In this document: positions 28,725 through 51,782 of the stretch, one piece after another
Numbering within the stretch: position 1 is the stretch's first letter
How the letters are laid out: each line of letters starts with the position of its first letter
NCBI RefSeq assembly: GCF_012272815.1
Contig: NZ_JAAWWL010000002.1
Span: 1,394,280 to 1,458,279 of the forward strand
Origin: Croceivirga thetidis
GTDB lineage: Bacteria > Bacteroidota > Bacteroidia > Flavobacteriales > Flavobacteriaceae
Reading direction: 5' to 3'
Length of the DNA: 64,000 bases
Translations under genes and position numbers: made by a program
The notes under the pieces: model-generated
What the model was told of the DNA's origin: nothing
Databases searched by the model: none
What the model saw: only the letters and a program-made list of their open reading frames with translations

Positions 28725-30281
28725 ATGTTCGAGATTACGGATCTTAAGGCAAAAAAACTTGCCGAACTTCACGAGATTGCCAAAGAAATGAACGTTCCCA
28801 AGTTCAAATCTTTGAAAAAATTGGATTTGGTCTATCAAATCCTAGATGTTCAAGCATCAAACCCGAAAAAAATTACAGCTAAAGTTGAAGAAACAAAAGC
28901 TGAAGCCCCAGCAAAAAAATCAAACGAGGCTCCAAAGCAAAAGCGAGAACGAACTCCTAAAAACGAGTCGCAAGGTGGTTCTGAAAAGTCTGACGGAGAC
29001 AAGGGTAATGGCCAGAAAAATGCCAGAAACCATGACAACAATCGTCAAAACAACAAAAACCAGAACAACCGAAAAAACCATCAGAACAATCGCAACAACC
29101 GACAAGAAAAAAATAGCAATTACGACAAGGACTTGAAAAACCGTTATCGGGAACCTGAGTTCGAGTTTGATAGCATCATAACCAGTGAAGGTGTGTTGGA
29201 TATTATGCAGGATGGCTATGGATTCTTGCGCTCTTCTGACTACAATTACTTGTCTTCGCCTGATGACATTTACGTTTCACAATCGCAAATTCGATTGTTT
29301 GGACTAAAAACAGGTGACACGGTTTTGGGTAATATTCGCCCTCCGAAAGAAGGGGAAAAGTATTTTCCACTGATTAAAGTGAACAAAATCAATGGCCTTG
29401 ACCCACAAGTCGTTCGCGACCGTGTGTCATTTGAGCATTTGACACCACTTTTCCCAAAAGAGAAGTTCAATGTTGCCGATCGTCAAAATTCATTGTCAAC
29501 ACGTATAATCGACCTTTTCTCACCTATTGGTAAGGGGCAACGTGGTATGATTGTAGCACAACCAAAGACAGGTAAAACGATGTTATTAAAAGACATCGCG
29601 AACGGTATTGCTGCCAACCACCCAGAGGTGTATCAAATCATTTTATTGATTGACGAACGCCCTGAGGAGGTTACCGATATGCAACGTAACGTTCGTGGCG
29701 AGGTGGTTGCTTCTACTTTTGATAAAGAGGCTACCGAACACGTGCGTGTGGCGAACATCGTTATTGAAAAAGCCAAACGTTTGGTGGAATGCGGTCATGA
29801 CGTTGTAATTCTCTTGGATTCGATTACACGTTTAGCGCGTGCGTACAATACGGTTCAACCAGCATCAGGTAAAGTACTTTCCGGTGGTGTGGATGCTAAT
29901 GCACTGCATAAACCAAAACGTTTCTTCGGTGCGGCTCGTAACATCGAAAATGGAGGTTCACTTTCAATCATTGCGACTGCATTAACTGAAACAGGCTCCA
30001 AGATGGACGAGGTGATTTTTGAGGAATTCAAGGGTACCGGTAATATGGAGCTTCAGTTGGATAGAAGAATCTCTAATCGTAGAATCTTCCCAGCTATTGA
30101 CCTGATTTCTTCTTCAACACGTCGTGACGATTTGTTGTTGGATGAACAGACCATTCAACGCATGTGGATCATGCGCAAATATTTGGCAGACATGAACCCA
30201 GTTGAAGCCATGGAATTTATGGAGCAGCGTATGAAGCAAACTAGAAATAACGAAGAGTTTTTGCTTACGATGAATGAGTAA
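28725..30281 (+). CDS. rho: Transcription termination factor Rho with disordered insertion
   Basis: 518 residues, about 100 longer than E. coli Rho. The N-terminal SAP-like domain (1-42, [16 protein letters not shown]) is followed by a low-complexity stretch rich in Asn, Lys, Arg and Gln (about 45-140), then the RNA-binding cold-shock-like domain ([13 protein letters not shown]) and the RecA-like ATPase with Walker A AQPKTGKT (278-285) and [13 protein letters not shown]. The hexamer ends transcription on untranslated RNA. The insertion is typical of Bacteroidota Rho. Confidence 0.98.
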
Positions 30282-30461: not shown

Positions 30462-31100
30462 ATGAAAAAAACACTTAAAACCATTTCTGGGTTTGCAATG
30501 GTAACGCTTTTGCTTATGGGGGCTTGCCAAGAAAAACCCAAGGAGTCAAAAGACGAAGAACCGATGGAGGAAACGGAAGTACTAGTTACTCCGAAACAAA
30601 TTATTTCAATTGATCAAGCCGATTCGCTTTTCGTAAACTACAAAAGAAGACGGGCCAACAGCATTCAAAAGTTTGAAATGGGCTTGCAAGACGAGGGTGA
30701 CAAACCCTTTGAGCCTACCCAGTTTGTGACCTTTAATCTTGAGGTGGTAAAAAACTATATCGCTTATGTTGAACAAGAGGCCTACAAAGCTGGAACAACG
30801 GTTGATAGCTTGCGTTTGTATTTAGGCAACTATGGCAACACTGAAAAAGGCTGGAAAAAGAAAAGAAGAAATACGGTCTTTATAGTGCCTGCGGCAGAAG
30901 CTGAGGATGGCTATGGAGGCATTTATATTGGTGAAGACGGTAAGGCCAAACTAATACGGAATTTATTCAATGGAGGACAAGAGGGCGAACCGAGACAAAA
31001 GGCATCCCTATTACCGTCATTTAATACTTCATTATACAATGGTGGTAGTCTAATTTTGAACAGAGGAGATGCAGGGCCACCACCTTTTGGGGATTTCTAA
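30462..31100 (+). CDS. Lipoprotein of unknown function, cassette copy 1
   Basis: 212 residues with a lipoprotein signal (LLLMGACQE). After an acidic linker it has a helical motif ISIDQADSLFVNYKRRRANS, then NYIAYVEQEAYKAGTTVDSL, a strand NTVFIVPAAE, and the C-terminus GGSLILNRGDAGPPPFGDF. The same blocks occur in the lipoprotein at 31873, so the two are paralogs. I do not recognise a named function. It is followed after 3 bases by a membrane protein that is also duplicated, which points to a two-gene unit. Confidence 0.85.
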   Translation: MKKTLKTISGFAMVTLLLMGACQEKPKESKDEEPMEETEVLVTPKQIISIDQADSLFVNYKRRRANSIQKFEMGLQDEGDKPFEPTQFVTFNLEVVKNYIAYVEQEAYKAGTTVDSLRLYLGNYGNTEKGWKKKRRNTVFIVPAAEAEDGYGGIYIGEDGKAKLIRNLFNGGQEGEPRQKASLLPSFNTSLYNGGSLILNRGDAGPPPFGDF

Positions 31101-31103
31101 AAA

Positions 31104-31793
31104 ATGATTCAAGAGCTATTTGAATTCGCACTAAAGCGATATAACATAATCGCTTATTTAGTAGCACTTATTCTAAGCATCAGATATTATGGAAAGTACT
31201 TTGACACTGCGTTAAAGTACTTTCCAATGATTATAGCCTATACTTTATTCAATGAACTCTTGGGTTACTTCGTAAGAAATTACGATGATTTTGCATTCTT
31301 TTCAGATAATATTTCGGCAAACGATTTAATCTACAATTTTTATGACCTAGTGATATATAGCTATTTCTACTTTCTTTATTGGAGACTAGTTGATAACAAG
31401 GTAGCCAGAAAATGGATTAAAATTTTATCTATTTCTGTTTTGATTTCATATATCATAAGTAGTTTTTATCAAAACCCTCTTAAGATGTCACTTTTCTATG
31501 CAACTTGTTATGGATCATTGATTATTGCAATCTGTGTAATATTCTATTTTGCAAACCGAATAAAATCAGGAGGTTGGAATTGGAACTGGGAAAAATATAA
31601 CTTAATGACATGGGTTTCGATAGGTCTTTTCGTTTTTTATCTACTATTTCCAATTATTTATCTAATTGGTTTTTTAAGATATGACTTATGGCAAAAGTTC
31701 AATCTTCAAACTACGCTTTTGATTCTAATAACCTGCATGTACATATCTTTCTCAATTGGCTTTTTAAAAAGTAGTCGGCGGTTTTTTAGATAA
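31104..31793 (+). CDS. Multi-pass membrane protein of unknown function, cassette copy 1
   Basis: 229 residues with about six or seven hydrophobic segments. Conserved with the protein at 32540 are the blocks KYFDTALKYFPMIIAYTLFNELLGYFV, SFYQNPLK and the W-x-x-IG-x-x-VF-x-x-FP-x-x-YL pattern. No known family comes to mind. It starts 3 bases after the lipoprotein gene stop, so the two should be cotranscribed and translated together. Confidence 0.82.
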   Translation: MIQELFEFALKRYNIIAYLVALILSIRYYGKYFDTALKYFPMIIAYTLFNELLGYFVRNYDDFAFFSDNISANDLIYNFYDLVIYSYFYFLYWRLVDNKVARKWIKILSISVLISYIISSFYQNPLKMSLFYATCYGSLIIAICVIFYFANRIKSGGWNWNWEKYNLMTWVSIGLFVFYLLFPIIYLIGFLRYDLWQKFNLQTTLLILITCMYISFSIGFLKSSRRFFR

Positions 31794-31872
31794 TTCGTCT
31801 TAACAAACCCTCTTCTAGATACTACCACTTTTTCTTACTTTTAGAACACTGTTAATTCAAATAACTAACTAC

Positions 31873-32430
31873 ATGAAATTAAAACAATTAGGAGGTGTTG
31901 CCCTAGGTGCGTTCGCCTCATTCTTGGTCATCATTGCGTGCCAAGAAGATTCAGAAGATTTAAATCAAGATGCGGAACAAGGTGCTATCGAAGCACCGGC
32001 AAAGCTTATTAGCTTTAGTGCTGCCCAAAACATGCACAACAATTATATGGTAAACCGTGCCAGTGTTATTGAGAAGTACGAACGCGAGGTGAACCAAAAA
32101 GACGATTTTGTAGCCATTCAATATTCTGAGTGGGATTTGGAAACCATCGAAGAATACATTGCCTACGTTAAACAAGAGGCAAATGCAGCCAATGTTAATG
32201 TGAATACCTTACGTTTCTATTTTGGTCAATACGACCAATCACAAGATGGAAAAAGCAACCTATTTATTGTACCAACTACCGATTTTGATGGTGTCAACCT
32301 CGGCTTTTACATTGATGGGTCTGGTGCTGCCTCTCCATTAAAAGGCAAAGGTGATACATCGAGCAAAAATGGAGGGAGTTTAATCTTAAACTACAGCCAA
32401 GGAGGACCTCCACCACCGGACGATTTTTAA
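31873..32430 (+). CDS. Lipoprotein of unknown function, cassette copy 2
   Basis: 185 residues with a lipoprotein signal (LVIIACQED). The paralogous blocks are ISFSAAQNMHNNYMVNRASV, EEYIAYVKQEANAANVNVNTL, NLFIVPTTD and the end GGSLILNYSQGGPPPPDDF. The Pro-rich acidic tail with terminal Asp-Phe is shared with copy 1 although the region before it has diverged, so it is probably under constraint. A strong terminator follows directly. Confidence 0.85.
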   Translation: MKLKQLGGVALGAFASFLVIIACQEDSEDLNQDAEQGAIEAPAKLISFSAAQNMHNNYMVNRASVIEKYEREVNQKDDFVAIQYSEWDLETIEEYIAYVKQEANAANVNVNTLRFYFGQYDQSQDGKSNLFIVPTTDFDGVNLGFYIDGSGAASPLKGKGDTSSKNGGSLILNYSQGGPPPPDDF

Positions 32431-32440
32431 AAATTATTTG

Positions 32441-32465
32441 AAAAGGGAGCAATTTGCTCCCTTTT
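32441..32465 (+). terminator. Rho-independent terminator after lipoprotein copy 2
   Basis: Stem AAAAGGGAGC, loop AATTT, complementary arm, then T run. It separates lipoprotein copy 2 from membrane protein copy 2, unlike copy 1, where the two genes are 3 bases apart. Confidence 0.85.
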
Positions 32466-32539
32466 TTAGTTTCTAATTTTGATAATTCGTTTAAAATTCT
32501 ACATTAGCGTTTTATCAAATTATTTCTTAGTAAGGGCCT

Positions 32540-33202
32540 TTGATTCCATATTACATAATTTTTTATTTCATCGCACTGGTGGCTTCGCTGGTGACCTTTA
32601 AGAAGTACTTTGATACACCCCTCAAAATATTTCCGTTACTTATCGCTTATACTTTTTTCAATGAAATTCTAGGGTACTTTGTTTTATTCTATGAAGAATT
32701 TTCATTTTTCGACGAAGAGGAATACAGTTGGCATACGGTAATTATCTACAACATCTACGATATATTCTTTTATACCTATTTGTACTGGCTGTATTACAAA
32801 CTTTTAAAAGATGCTAAAAATCGACTCCTGGTAAAAGTCTTTGCCGCGATAACACTGGTTGCGGTACTCATATCGTTATTCTTTCAAGACCCTTTTCATT
32901 CAGGGCTATATTTTGCGAATTGTTTGGCCTGTATTTTTATAATAATAATCATTAGTCTTCACTTTCAACAATTATATCGACTTAACAAAACCCAACCAAG
33001 TCGTTACAACCATATGATTTGGTTCAATATTGGAATGTTGGTTTTCCATTTTTTCTATCCATTCTATGTATTAAATGGCTACCATAATGTGGAGTTCTTT
33101 CTAGAGTACAACCTTCGCTTAATTTTATGGTGGGCCATCAGCATTATGTATGTCTTTTTTATCATCGGTTTTTTATTGGGCAAACGACCGTATTTCGGTT
33201 AG
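32540..33202 (+). CDS. Multi-pass membrane protein of unknown function, cassette copy 2
   Basis: 220 residues, about six or seven hydrophobic segments, paralogous to the protein at 31104: KYFDTPLKIFPLLIAYTFFNEILGYFV, LFFQDPFHSG, and MIWFNIGMLVFHFFYPFYVLNGY. The start is TTG; no in-frame ATG lies near and the reading MIPYYIIFYFI begins at the expected first helix. A terminator and about 75 bases lie between it and the lipoprotein, so it may have its own promoter or depend on read-through. Confidence 0.82.
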   Translation: MIPYYIIFYFIALVASLVTFKKYFDTPLKIFPLLIAYTFFNEILGYFVLFYEEFSFFDEEEYSWHTVIIYNIYDIFFYTYLYWLYYKLLKDAKNRLLVKVFAAITLVAVLISLFFQDPFHSGLYFANCLACIFIIIIISLHFQQLYRLNKTQPSRYNHMIWFNIGMLVFHFFYPFYVLNGYHNVEFFLEYNLRLILWWAISIMYVFFIIGFLLGKRPYFG

Positions 33203-33277: not shown

Positions 33278-33529
33278 TTACATAGCCGCAACCTTGCTGG
33301 CCAATTTACTTTTTAAGTTGGCAGCCTTGTTTTTGTGTATGATGTTACGCTTTGCAAGCTTGTCAATCATGCCTACAACAGAAGGCAAGAAAGCTTCAGC
33401 CTCTTTTTTATCTTCTTCATTCCGCAGTTTCTTGATTGCATTACGAACTGTTTTGTGCTGGTAACGGTTACGTAAACGTACTGCTTCGTTTCTTCGAATT
33501 CTTTTTAATGCTGACTTATGATTCGCCAT
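33278..33529 (-). CDS. rpsT: 30S ribosomal protein S20
   Basis: 83 residues, the usual length. The start [15 protein letters not shown] and the end [16 protein letters not shown] type sequence are those of S20, a helical 16S rRNA-binding protein. The gene stands 24 bases after the 3' end of a tRNA-Glu gene on the same strand, with no promoter motif in between, so it is probably made from the same transcript as the two tRNAs. Confidence 0.98.
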
Positions 33530-33553
33530 TGTCTTAATTTAAATTTTTTCTTG

Positions 33554-33625
33554 TAGCCCGTAGGGGAATCGAACCCCTGTTACCAGGATGAAAACCTGGC
33601 GTCCTAACCCCTAGACGAACGGGCC
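33554..33625 (-). tRNA. tRNA-Glu (TTC)
   Basis: 72 bases. The acceptor arm starts GGCCCGT, closes with ACGGGCT plus discriminator A, and the first pair is G-U. The anticodon stem CCAGG/CCTGG encloses the loop TTTTCAT with anticodon TTC. The T-arm GGGGTTCGATTCCCC is standard. CCA is not encoded. It is identical to the copy at 33689-33760. Confidence 0.97.
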
Positions 33626-33688
33626 GTGTATTGGAAACTTAGAAATCGAAGGATGAAACCATCCATTTTTAACCTTCCACCACATCAG

Positions 33689-33760
33689 TAGCCCGTAGGG
33701 GAATCGAACCCCTGTTACCAGGATGAAAACCTGGCGTCCTAACCCCTAGACGAACGGGCC
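33689..33760 (-). tRNA. tRNA-Glu (TTC), second identical copy
   Basis: Same 72-base sequence as the downstream copy, 63 bases away. It is the first gene after a strong promoter at 33802-33831. Confidence 0.97.
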
Positions 33761-35431: not shown

Positions 35432-36763
35432 ATGAGTAACATTTTACCCCGCCAAAATAAATACATCCTTCCAGCATTTTTGATGGTAGGAGTGTTGATT
35501 CTTTCTTCCTGTGGTTCGTACCAGCAAGCCTCTTATTACGAGGAAGATGGCATCTATTCAAATGGTAATCGTGTAGTTGTGGTTGAAAAGAAGTCGGCTG
35601 AAGCGGTTCGAAACGAAACACGGGAACAAAACCTTTACGGTGATTATTTCGGTCAAAAAGCAGACCAATATGCAGAGATATTGGATTCCGAGATATTCAC
35701 TGATGTAGATGGTTATTATAGCGGAACGGAAAATGATAGTATTCCGTTAGGGGAACAAACTGATTATTTTGCATACAATAATACCTATGAGGGAAATCCT
35801 GGCTGGGGAGATAACCCTACAAACCTGACCATCAACGTTATTGACAACGGTTGGGGTTGGAACAACTGGGGCTGGGGCGGAGGCCTTGGCTGGGGCTGGG
35901 GCTGGAACGACCCTTGGTTATGGAATGGAGGCTTTGGTTGGGGCTGGAACCGCTGGGGCTGGGGCTGGAACAATCCATGGCGCTGGAACCGTTGGGGCTG
36001 GGGCTGGAACGCAGGCTGGGGCTGGAACAACTGGGGTTGGAACGGTGGCTGGGGCTGGAACCAATGGGGTTATGCCGGTAACTGGGGTAGATATGGTAAC
36101 TACTATAACCGATTCAATAGAAGAGGATACAATAATAGCTTCATCAATAACAATGGCGTTGCCAGAACCTACAATAGAGGACGGTCAAGTGCAAATTACC
36201 GAGGTACAGCAGGACGTTCGTCTGCAGTTAGACGTGCAAGTTCAGGAAGGAGTAATATCTCTGGTAGAAATTCCACCGCCTACAGGCGAAGTGGTACGGC
36301 TACGTCACGAAGCTCCATAAATTCTTCGGCAGCACGTAATAGACAATATCGAAGTAGCAGAAGCACTAGAGCGGTACCGCGTTACAATGGTATTACGCGA
36401 TCAGGAAGAACCTACAGTAGTACTGCACCACGCAGTCGAAGTGCCAATAGCAATATTTATCGCAGTAGCAGATCTTCTCGTGCCAATAGCTCTGGTTACC
36501 GAACCTCAAGAAGTTCGTCACCGCGCAGCAGCACCTATTCAAGAAGTGCTCGAAGCAGCTCTTCAAGAAGTTATGGTAGCAGCTCTCGAAGCAGCAGAAG
36601 TTCCAGCTATGGAAGGTCATCAAGTGGCGGAAGAAGTTCAGGAAGCTTCAGCAGGAGTTCCGGTGGGAGCAGAAGCTCGAGCGTAGGCAGAAGTTCTGGC
36701 GGCGGGAGGTCTTCTGGCGGTAGAAGTTCAGGAGGTCGATCTGGAGGTCGCGGAAGACGCTAA
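35432..36763 (+). CDS. Trp/Gly/Asn-rich and Arg/Ser-rich lipoprotein of low complexity
   Basis: 443 residues. The lipobox is LILSSCGS (Cys about 27). Residues about 28-130 are ordinary sequence; about 135-225 are repeats of the type WGWNNWGWG with Arg, Pro or Gly substitutions; about 235-443 are rich in Arg, Ser and Gly (RSSSxRSS units) and end in GGRGRR. Similar proteins occur in flavobacteria, sometimes annotated vitellogenin-like, with no proven role. The basic tail would be exposed in the envelope and could bind polysaccharide, lipopolysaccharide or nucleic acid; this is inference. Confidence 0.85.
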   Translation: MSNILPRQNKYILPAFLMVGVLILSSCGSYQQASYYEEDGIYSNGNRVVVVEKKSAEAVRNETREQNLYGDYFGQKADQYAEILDSEIFTDVDGYYSGTENDSIPLGEQTDYFAYNNTYEGNPGWGDNPTNLTINVIDNGWGWNNWGWGGGLGWGWGWNDPWLWNGGFGWGWNRWGWGWNNPWRWNRWGWGWNAGWGWNNWGWNGGWGWNQWGYAGNWGRYGNYYNRFNRRGYNNSFINNNGVARTYNRGRSSANYRGTAGRSSAVRRASSGRSNISGRNSTAYRRSGTATSRSSINSSAARNRQYRSSRSTRAVPRYNGITRSGRTYSSTAPRSRSANSNIYRSSRSSRANSSGYRTSRSSSPRSSTYSRSARSSSSRSYGSSSRSSRSSSYGRSSSGGRSSGSFSRSSGGSRSSSVGRSSGGGRSSGGRSSGGRSGGRGRR

Positions 36764-49133: not shown

Positions 49134-49760
49134 TCAGACCAACGCTTTTTCAATTGCTATTTTGACCAGTGAAGCAGTATTGGAAGCTTTCATCTTTTTC
49201 ATCAAATTTCGCCGATGGGTTTCAACGGTCAAGGGACTAATAAATAATTCTTCGGCAATTTGATTATTGGTTTTGCCCGAGACAATAAGTTTTAATATTT
49301 GCTTTTCCCTTTTTGTAAGACGAGGTGTGTTCCCCATAGAATGGAAAATCGTATTTGCCATTGCCTTCTGAACTTCTACACCGAAATATACGTTACCTCG
49401 GTAGACTTTATTTATGGCCTCTATAAGCTCTGTTTCAGTAACATTTTTAAGTAAATAGCCCTTTGCGCCATTCGATATCATTTGGTTGATAATACTTCTC
49501 TCACCATAGGTACTTAAACCAATTACAGCAATCGTGGGGTGCTTCTTTGATATTTGTTCGCAAATATCAATTCCACTTGTATCGGGTAAATTGATATCCA
49601 ACAAAACGATATCAACAAAGTTGTTCTGCAGGTATTGCAGGGCATGATATCCGTCATTACAACTTTCTACAACTTTAATGTCTTGGTTGCCCCTGAGCAA
49701 AGACTTCAATCCCTCTATTACAAGTGGATGATCGTCGACAATCAATACTTTTATTTTCAT
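49134..49760 (-). CDS. NarL/LuxR-type response regulator
   Basis: 208 residues from ATG at 49760 (MKIKVLIVDDHPLVIEG); an ATG at 49775 adds five residues. The receiver carries acidic D9/D10 and the phospho-acceptor D55 in LLDINLPD. The C-terminal LuxR HTH is LTKREKQILKLIVSGKTNNQIAEELFIS. It would be phosphorylated by the kinase encoded directly upstream and bind DNA as a dimer. The targets are unknown. Confidence 0.95.
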   Translation of the reverse strand: MKIKVLIVDDHPLVIEGLKSLLRGNQDIKVVESCNDGYHALQYLQNNFVDIVLLDINLPDTSGIDICEQISKKHPTIAVIGLSTYGERSIINQMISNGAKGYLLKNVTETELIEAINKVYRGNVYFGVEVQKAMANTIFHSMGNTPRLTKREKQILKLIVSGKTNNQIAEELFISPLTVETHRRNLMKKMKASNTASLVKIAIEKALV

Positions 49761-49775
49761 CGTACTCAGTGCCAT

Positions 49776-51782
49776 CTAGACTTCTATTACAATATTTACA
49801 TTAGTACCTTCATTGGGTATTGAATCAAAATCAATTTCGCCATTAAGATAGGCAACCCTAGTCCTCAAGTTGTTCAAACCCATACCTCCACTTGTGACCG
49901 ATTCCTTTGGTGAAAAGCCATTTCCATTGTCCTCGACCGTAATATGAATTTTATCATCTTCAATAAGGTATTGTACCAAGACTTCTTTTGCCTTAGAGTG
50001 TTTGACCGCATTATTAATCAGTTCTTGCATTATGCGATAAATTGTAAGAGATTTTGAATTTGATAGCTCTCGGTCATCATCATAGAATTGAATGATAAAC
50101 TTAATATCGTCAATACCAGAACTTATGGAAGAACAATAATCTTCAATAGCATTTTTAAGTCCGTACCTAAAAAGTGTTTCGGGCATTAGGTTCATGGCAA
50201 TTCCCCGGAGTTCACTAAGGGAATCATCAATATTTTTGGCAGCCTGTTTAAACTCTAGCTCCGCGGTTTGGCCATTGCTCTTTTTTGCCAATTTTTCTAA
50301 TTTAATTCTAGTGGCTGATAATCTTCCTGCCAATCCATCATGAAGGTCAATTGCCAGTCTTTGACGCTCGTTTTCTTGTCCTTCAAGCATAGCGCTGTAA
50401 ACTTTTGATTCCTGTTCATATTTCAGCTGATTGATTTCAGCTGACTTTAGCTGATCCTGCTTTTTAAAGTTTCGGTATCCGAAAAAAGTCAAACTCGCCA
50501 AAATGAACAATCCCAAAGAAATGGAAATTAAAAAGTAATTCTCTGATTGTTTCTTTGCCAATTCTAATTCGGTTTCATTGTTCTCTGACTTTAACTGAAA
50601 AATTTGGCGTTCTTTCTTTTCAGATTGGTACTGGCTCTCCAATCGATTGATCTCTTTTTCTAATTCTGATGTATTAATAGTATCAGAAATCGCCACATAG
50701 CTAGCCAAACTTTCTAATGCCTCACCATCCCTTCCTAGTTGATGTTGGTAATATGATAACTCCTTATATATTTCAGCCTCAATAATTTTGTTTTGATATT
50801 GCAGCGCTAATTCACGGCATTTTTGTGCATATTCCAGTCCTTTTCGATAATCTTTTTTAGCCCTATAAACATTCATAAATGTCATGTACAAGGGCAACTT
50901 ATTGGATTGGATTGGATTCTGATTTAAGAACCTTTCTGCCTTTTTTAAGTTAATTATGGCTTTATCATAAGCCTCAGTTCCTATAAAATATTCAGCAAGA
51001 ATGGTATGATAAAGTTGCTGCTTATCTTTTTTCGGTAGCGAATCAAGAACAGGCTTAACATTATCTAATTCCATTTTAGCCCTTGAGAGGGAATCCATTT
51101 GTAAGAGACAAGATGAGAATAAAAGTCGATTGGTGATGTAGCTTTGAAAATCATTGGATTTCAGGTGTTGGGGAGCGCCCAATTTAAAATATTCATAGGC
51201 CTTTTTATGTTGACCTTGATTAAAAAAACCAATACCAATATTGGTGTTGGCCTTTGCCAAGATTTCAAAGTAACCAATCTTTTCGGCAACTTTTGAAATC
51301 TTATTTATATAGTAAACGTCTTCATTAATTCCCTGCATTGAACGGACAACCCCAATATTAAAATTGGCCCTCACCCAAAGTTTTAAGTATTCTTCTGAAG
51401 AATCTTTTTTAATGACTTCACTGAGTACCGTATCTGCAGTTTTGAGATGATATTCAGCTTTGGTATGATTTCCATAACCATCATAAAAATCACCCAATAA
51501 AAAATGCCCTTTGCCAATTCCAAAGGCGTTATTTTTTTTCAACGCGCTTTCCAGTCCTTTGCGAACGTACCCTAAAGCTACCGCAGAATCTATTTCTTCA
51601 TACAACTCTGCAATATCATAATTGATAAATATGCTACTGGGATTTTCCTTTAAAAAGGAATCAAGACTGTCTATTTTTACTTGAATATCTTCTTGTGAAA
51701 AAAGAGCACTTAAACTGAAGAGTATAAGGATTATGCTTCCAAATAAGTTTGATGTTCTATTCAATTTAAGCGCTCTTGTCAA
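49776..51782 (-). CDS. TPR-containing sensor histidine kinase (NarX/DesK type)
   Basis: 668 residues. A signal peptide (ends near FSQ) is followed by TPR-like helical repeats (about 30-360), a coiled coil, one transmembrane helix (417-436), then HisKA_3 with the phospho-acceptor His481 in AIDLHDGLAGRLSATR and a HATPase domain with ELINNAVKHSKA and DNGNGF. The periplasmic TPRs suggest sensing through a protein partner. It lies between a small lipoprotein gene and its response regulator; its stop is a few bases before the regulator start. Confidence 0.94.
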   Translation of the reverse strand: MTRALKLNRTSNLFGSIILILFSLSALFSQEDIQVKIDSLDSFLKENPSSIFINYDIAELYEEIDSAVALGYVRKGLESALKKNNAFGIGKGHFLLGDFYDGYGNHTKAEYHLKTADTVLSEVIKKDSSEEYLKLWVRANFNIGVVRSMQGINEDVYYINKISKVAEKIGYFEILAKANTNIGIGFFNQGQHKKAYEYFKLGAPQHLKSNDFQSYITNRLLFSSCLLQMDSLSRAKMELDNVKPVLDSLPKKDKQQLYHTILAEYFIGTEAYDKAIINLKKAERFLNQNPIQSNKLPLYMTFMNVYRAKKDYRKGLEYAQKCRELALQYQNKIIEAEIYKELSYYQHQLGRDGEALESLASYVAISDTINTSELEKEINRLESQYQSEKKERQIFQLKSENNETELELAKKQSENYFLISISLGLFILASLTFFGYRNFKKQDQLKSAEINQLKYEQESKVYSAMLEGQENERQRLAIDLHDGLAGRLSATRIKLEKLAKKSNGQTAELEFKQAAKNIDDSLSELRGIAMNLMPETLFRYGLKNAIEDYCSSISSGIDDIKFIIQFYDDDRELSNSKSLTIYRIMQELINNAVKHSKAKEVLVQYLIEDDKIHITVEDNGNGFSPKESVTSGGMGLNNLRTRVAYLNGEIDFDSIPNEGTNVNIVIEV

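Follow-up and report, generated by a model that had tools for sequence, protein, structure and literature searches.

The A and B genes of Croceivirga thetidis form a cassette in the order A1-B1-A2-B2, in which lipoprotein genes (A) alternate with genes for multi-pass membrane proteins (B). The cassette lies within a 64,000-nucleotide stretch of contig NZ_JAAWWL010000002.1, called the window below. The A-B pair probably belongs to a split two-component system, organized like UhpC-UhpB-UhpA, as its detached sensing part. An earlier annotation made from the DNA letters, the original prediction, had guessed at an envelope sensor. That guess fits what is seen in other lineages, where a histidine kinase (HK) without a sensor follows A-B.

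The four genes and their products

All four open reading frames (ORFs) were confirmed on the forward strand at the coordinates first proposed for them, and all four frames are intact. A1 (30462 to 31100) encodes a lipoprotein of 212 residues with the lipobox-like stretch LMGAC-Q. Three bases separate its stop codon from the start codon of B1 (31104 to 31793), which encodes a seven-helix membrane protein of 229 residues. A2 (31873 to 32430) encodes a lipoprotein of 185 residues whose lipobox-like stretch, VIIAC-Q, is weaker; both stretches were identified by reading the sequence. B2 (32540 to 33202) has a TTG start and encodes a protein of 220 residues that is of the seven-helix type by homology with B1 and by its place in the B tree. 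The assignments of A1, B1 and A2 rest on the ORF list and on alignments within each pair, together with structural models of A1 and B1 and the A tree for A2.

Both pairs are clearly similar in BLASTP comparisons. A1 and A2 are identical at 70 of 211 positions (33%, E 5e-31) and B1 and B2 at 82 of 221 (37%, E 4e-33), and the sequence blocks that had been named as common to each pair are visible in these alignments. Family profiles found no A or B in the window genome other than the cassette copies (E ≤ 0.001). Single-sequence searches run to E 10 added weak matches only (E 0.01-0.04), one of which is the tail of A1 itself.

A is encoded with B

A scan of named genomes with B as the query gave 88 loci, of which the best 80, the closest relatives, are referred to here as the named loci. 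In all 80 the gene directly upstream of B is A. The layouts are A-B in 42, A-B-B in 34, A-B-B-B in two, A-B-A-B-B in one and A-B followed by a kinase in one; the ratio of A to B is not fixed at one to one, A-B-B being common. A collection of 41 family regions, consisting of the window and 40 regions fetched from lists of A and B matches, is biased toward adjacency by that choice, and A adjoins B in all 41 of them. This count includes L072, in which a simple gene-calling script lost A and the search places it (E 4e-23). The same script lost B in L262 and L273, where the profile search places both. The median gap between A and B is 11 bases (46 pairs).

The less biased counts of adjacency come from the named loci and from a search of the phylum. 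In 296 Bacteroidota genomes (E ≤ 0.001) A was found in 28 and B in 46, and all 28 genomes with A also have B. B lies just downstream of 39 of the 41 A matches, and the two exceptions are the weakest matches. Single-sequence searches of 149 family genomes (E ≤ 0.01) gave A matches in 82 and B matches in 59, counts that include weak matches such as helix-only matches of B to ORFs of about 1100 residues.

Kinases and regulators follow A-B in relatives

A kinase follows A-B in 26 of the 41 family regions, and the other 15 are of the rho kind described below. The usual arrangement has a kinase family of about 260 residues and then a family of about 212 residues. HisKA_3 and HATPase_c were found in all 25 aligned kinase members, and the second family is a response regulator (RR) with a LuxR-type domain, as checked in one member and in that of L168. 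Among 20 regions from more distant genomes A-B-kinase occurs in eight, or in ten when the two B genes lost by the gene caller are counted.

Together these make 61 regions, and in 37 of them the last A or B gene is followed directly by a kinase of less than 330 residues. Each of these 37 short kinases has one membrane helix, preceded by only 5-26 residues, and so has no extracytoplasmic sensor of its own. The next gene was recognized as a response regulator in 29 of the 37. With the first possible start taken, the HK frame overlaps that of B in 19 of 24 cases. In two regions the kinase is instead of the LytS type and is accompanied by a LytTR regulator (L096, by Pfam, and L268, by similarity). 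The presence of A-B before a sensor-less kinase of either type is as expected of a detached sensor module, and the relatives have both parts of such a system, a kinase without a sensor and a membrane protein encoded beside it.

In L271 the short kinase is replaced by an ORF of 684 residues after B, which matches the regulator profile. By eye it has one helix and PAS-like and kinase-like parts.

The kinase-less form at rho

No kinase or regulator lies beside the cassette in the window. By sequence, the window cassette belongs to a type found at the rho locus in the Maribacter, Muricauda, Croceivirga, Arenibacter and Zobellia group. The rho gene (28725 to 30281, forward strand; Pfam Rho_RNA_bind and Rho_N) is the conserved 5' neighbor of this type and adjoins the cassette in 79 of the 80 named loci. 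No kinase was seen in 79 of the 80, a count that includes three loci whose sequence stops at most about 430 bases past the last B (L124, L127 and L131). The exception is L168 of Cerina litoralis F89, which has rho-A-B-HK-RR.

The B tree places L168 at the first branching within the rho group, and support for this is moderate (91); the A tree gives it no clear place. HK and RR probably disappeared, in a single step or in several, after A-B had taken its place at rho, because L168 retains the full arrangement at rho and branches first in the B tree. Kinase-linked rows are nested among kinase-less rows in the A tree as first found, and a tree constrained to make the kinase-less rows one group is no worse a fit (p-AU 0.60), so that a single loss is allowed. 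Both trees come from quick searches, and long branches are numerous in the B tree.

The kinase-less copies are under purifying selection. The median dN/dS between kinase-less relatives is 0.07 for A (21 pairs), 0.10 for B (17 pairs) and 0.04 for rho (24 pairs), with ranges of 0.05-0.17 for A and 0.04-0.15 for B. These values come from 24 close pairs of relatives that are not independent of one another, and the window had no pair close enough to be included.

Co-variation of A, B and the kinase

The distances of A and B co-vary beyond what rho and proS account for. Across 58 named loci their partial correlation given rho and proS is 0.48 (permutation p 0.0002), and that of A with a neighboring control gene, which in the window encodes a DUF4293 protein, is -0.02 (p 0.58). 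This co-variation, the 80 of 80 named loci and the 39 of 41 phylum-wide A matches support the proposal that A and B work together. In 20 kinase-linked loci the partial correlations given RR are 0.68 for A with B, 0.40 for B with HK and 0.44 for A with HK.

Anatomy of the A and B families

No Pfam or NCBIfam model matched any of the four cassette proteins significantly, and no solved structure is related to them by sequence. The wider A and B families gave weak, scattered matches to these libraries, none of them convincing. Among the strongest, one A member matched a mycoplasma thiamine-binding lipoprotein model (E 6e-5), another match of a single A member was to TcaA_2nd (E 0.0008), and one B member matched an ECF folate S-component model (E 0.0007).

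The model of B1 has seven membrane helices (mean pLDDT 95.1, pTM 0.90). Lysine and arginine are concentrated in the parts assigned to the inside, with means per B protein of 2.95, 0.54 (a loop of three residues), 1.8 and, in the C-terminal tail, 3.17; the outer parts have 0.6, 0.25, 0.21 and 0.51. B is therefore predicted to have its N terminus outside and its C terminus in the cytoplasm. Across 99 B proteins, no residues but P41, Y46 and G219 are invariant. Foldseek returned no match for the B1 model at E ≤ 0.001. Its best alignment with rhodopsin- and GPCR-shaped receptors has Z 11.2 and rmsd 4.9 over 213 aligned residues, and for helical bundles a Z below about 13 may reflect a mere common arrangement.

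The A1 model, which is of moderate confidence (mean pLDDT 79.8), combines two helices, one of them long, with a small sheet; fold searches with it found nothing informative (best Z 3.4). A conserved domain of more than 100 residues, modeled as folded, precedes the tail. Profile comparison places the A proteins of the rho locus and a mainly kinase-linked set in one family (99.7%). Most of the A family resembles lipoproteins. A lipobox pattern was found in 108 of 140 A-profile matches; the pattern is loose, several of the 24 rows scored as without a lipobox clearly have a cysteine after a hydrophobic stretch, two of the eight rows scored as none probably have wrong starts, and one match (L092_0) is probably due to chance.

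The terminal Asp-Phe that had been singled out as conserved does not hold as a family feature. It ends 40 of 96 rho-locus A proteins, 0 of 33 kinase-linked ones and 0 of 10 distant ones. The best conserved elements of the tail are an asparagine and a pair of prolines; the motif N-x(3-7)-PP occurs in 92 of the 96, 22 of the 33 and 6 of the 10, respectively.

DUF6768 of Pfam is weakly matched by eight of 38 B members (best E 0.0014), which could reflect a distant relation or helix composition. The similarity of B to the ORFs of about 1100 residues was rejected; in the two inspected, the long proteins aligned over helices only, and we take these ORFs to be membrane glycosyltransferases. ORFs with CPPxC-like or CPP-containing tails lie upstream of distant B genes in L256, L258, L269, L270, L271 and L272, and in L270 such an ORF also lies downstream of B. 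That of L272 is matched by the A profile (E 9e-6), and five CPP-tailed ORFs of L258 and L269-L271 reached 78.6% in profile comparison.

A proposed split sensor and its alternatives

Gene order, co-conservation, co-variation, domain content and predicted topology are as reported above; from here we infer a physical contact, a direction of the signal and a cue. B would be a seven-helix receptor-like membrane protein and one of two sensing subunits, the other being A, its lipid-anchored partner in the periplasm or at the surface. In A-B-HK-RR loci a cue detected by A, by B or by both would change the shape of B. B would then transmit the signal through the membrane to the separate single-helix kinase, which has no sensor domain and would phosphorylate the LuxR/NarL-type regulator. 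At the rho locus HK and RR would have been lost, A-B kept by purifying selection, and B (or A) multiplied. We conjecture that A-B there feeds another, unlinked partner, most simply a TPR-containing HisKA_3 kinase.

Known systems offer partial parallels. UhpC is transporter-like, and UhpB has a large membrane part of its own. Unlike UhpC, B matches no transporter family convincingly, and the A-B system includes a lipoprotein. The likeness to UhpC-UhpB-UhpA is one of organization, with no homology claimed: in glucose-6-phosphate sensing a separate membrane sensor drives a membrane kinase and a cytoplasmic regulator (PMC11077982), and a separate membrane sensor is what A-B-HK-RR would share with it. 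In LiaF-LiaS-LiaR an accessory membrane protein is encoded with the kinase and regulator (PMC3543457). LiaF, of Bacillus, is an inhibitor and, unlike B, has no lipoprotein partner; no sequence relation between the two was seen, and no LiaF model is listed among the family matches of 38 B members (at least 25 families for Pfam and nine in the other list). In QseG-QseE-QseF the envelope lipoprotein QseG acts on and binds the histidine kinase QseE (PMC12691602). The kinase linked to A-B has almost no extracytoplasmic part, and because of this A could hardly act except through B. The RAYM_RS09735/09740 system of Riemerella (PMC5399024) is an undecided candidate for a system with an A-B pair upstream. 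In the open-licence literature, nothing on the A-B family or the four-gene arrangement appeared among the matches listed.

The split sensor would provide two widespread families, neither of them convincingly covered by a Pfam or NCBIfam model, with a function that can be tested. It predicts that many histidine kinases of Bacteroidota regarded as sensor-less have a sensor encoded by the first and second genes upstream of them. The kinase-less lineage would be a natural experiment in which selection keeps a sensor after its kinase is lost.

Several observations weigh against this reading. The output assigned to A-B is missing exactly at the cassette type of the window. The kinase profile matched eight ORFs in the window genome (E ≤ 0.001), all of 499-715 residues, and no short sensor-less kinase. 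Among 16 genomes with A-B, the only strong short-kinase match (372 bits) is in G129, which also has kinase-linked A-B; short ORFs in G086, G102, G018 and G037 match with at most 124 bits and only from model position 45, beyond the membrane helix. Co-variation does not follow the order of contacts that the model proposes. The correlation of B with HK drops to 0.15 (p 0.07) given RR and A; with RR and B held constant, A with HK still gives 0.25 (p 0.016), so B is not singled out as the contact of the kinase. Because this pattern does not favor B over A, our confidence in the split sensor is slightly lower than it would otherwise be, at the level of probable. The DUF4293 control also correlates with B above chance (0.14, p 0.005), and cassettes moving as blocks may raise all of these correlations. 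Six A proteins lack a signal peptide by eye (L086, L087, L097, L100, L103 and L259) and do not fit a purely extracytoplasmic A. Finally, 37 of the 76 phylum-wide B matches have no A detected upstream, mostly outside the family; on a closer look at 20 regions, an A-profile match was found beside five of these B genes. The expectation that the two families would be neighbors across Bacteroidota therefore held for A, which is not mostly apart from B, and only in part for B: A occurs with B, and B can occur without a recognized A. In L087, L097 and L103 a second A is present, with an N-terminal hydrophobic stretch.

There are other readings. One is that B proteins are free-standing seven-helix receptors of Bacteroidota that resemble animal receptors in having exchangeable partners downstream (HisKA_3-type, LytS-type and possibly larger kinases) and that at rho the output is non-cognate or does not involve a kinase; we hold this as a tentative possibility, with rather less than even chances. 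Another, which we think unlikely, is that A-B acts in envelope transport or maintenance, for instance as a carrier or export helper, and is merely controlled by the downstream kinase and regulator, so that it can persist without them. The 79 named loci without HK and RR and the purifying selection on kinase-less copies would suit such a role. B members match transporter or enzyme models only singly and weakly, however, the ECF folate S-component being the best such match; that just three residues of B are invariant also speaks against it, as do the kinases themselves, which have no other sensor, often overlap B and, where A-B accompanies them, belong to different families. That the window copies are decaying leftovers without function is scarcely credible. 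Such decay would explain why no kinase stands beside the cassette and none of the short type is found in the genome, but the frames are intact, the low dN/dS values above were obtained between kinase-less relatives (with no pair close enough for the window itself), and the cassette has been kept across many genera and re-duplicated.

The tail of A raises a further alternative by analogy with Agr signaling, in which AgrD is sensed by AgrC. The proline-rich C terminus of A might be released and sensed by B as a peptide signal, and it is true that the tail motif is present in both locus types and that A is encoded beside a multi-helix receptor-like protein and elsewhere also a kinase. Unlike a short propeptide, however, A has its conserved, folded-modeled domain ahead of the tail, and the tail ends differ among A proteins. 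A Peptidase_M50 match occurred in one of 38 B members at a chance-level E of 0.15, and the neighborhoods were not searched for a processing protease. We regard this alternative as quite improbable. The split sensor remains the reading that we prefer.

History of the duplication

The original prediction had argued from the duplication of A and B as a pair that the two cooperate. The cooperation is supported, as described above; the trees do not demonstrate a simple tandem copying of the two genes together. B2 of the window clusters with the second B found in Croceivirga and in related loci that have one A (A-B-B), with support of 99, and A2 clusters with A2 of genome G086 alone, also with support of 99. 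Orthologs of B2 thus occur in one-A loci. An A may have been gained between two B genes, or one may have been lost in Croceivirga.

The gap between A2 and B2 contains an intrinsic-terminator-like stem-loop of 12 pairs (32440 to 32466, forward strand), identified by consensus match only; five such sites were found in the region and 2.0 were expected. It is overlapped by a promoter-like site, TTG-N17-TAATTTTG, upstream of B2 (32454 to 32481, forward strand). The consensus used for this site has two matches in the window with 1.79 expected, so that position alone supports the site. Because of these two elements, B2 may be expressed separately from A2.

L150 of Maribacter luteus RZ05 has a five-gene locus, A-B-A-B-B, whose second block falls in another lineage in both trees. 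As this block groups apart from the first for A as well as for B, it suggests that the cassette was transferred horizontally in one piece.

Surroundings of the cassette

A frequent downstream neighbor, recognized by neighborhood comparison, is an ORF of 83 residues (33278 to 33529, reverse strand), presumably ribosomal protein S20. Two tandem tRNA-Glu (TTC) genes follow on the same strand, opposite to the cassette (33553 to 33625 and 33688 to 33760). At 49134 to 51782 on the reverse strand, 16 kb from the cassette, are a histidine kinase of 668 residues, which carries TPR, HisKA_3 and HATPase_c, and a LuxR-type regulator. On proximity alone this kinase is a candidate for the unlinked partner. 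An ORF of 443 residues (35432 to 36763, forward strand) has a lipoprotein-like start, followed by a part rich in glycine, tryptophan and asparagine and then one rich in serine and arginine.

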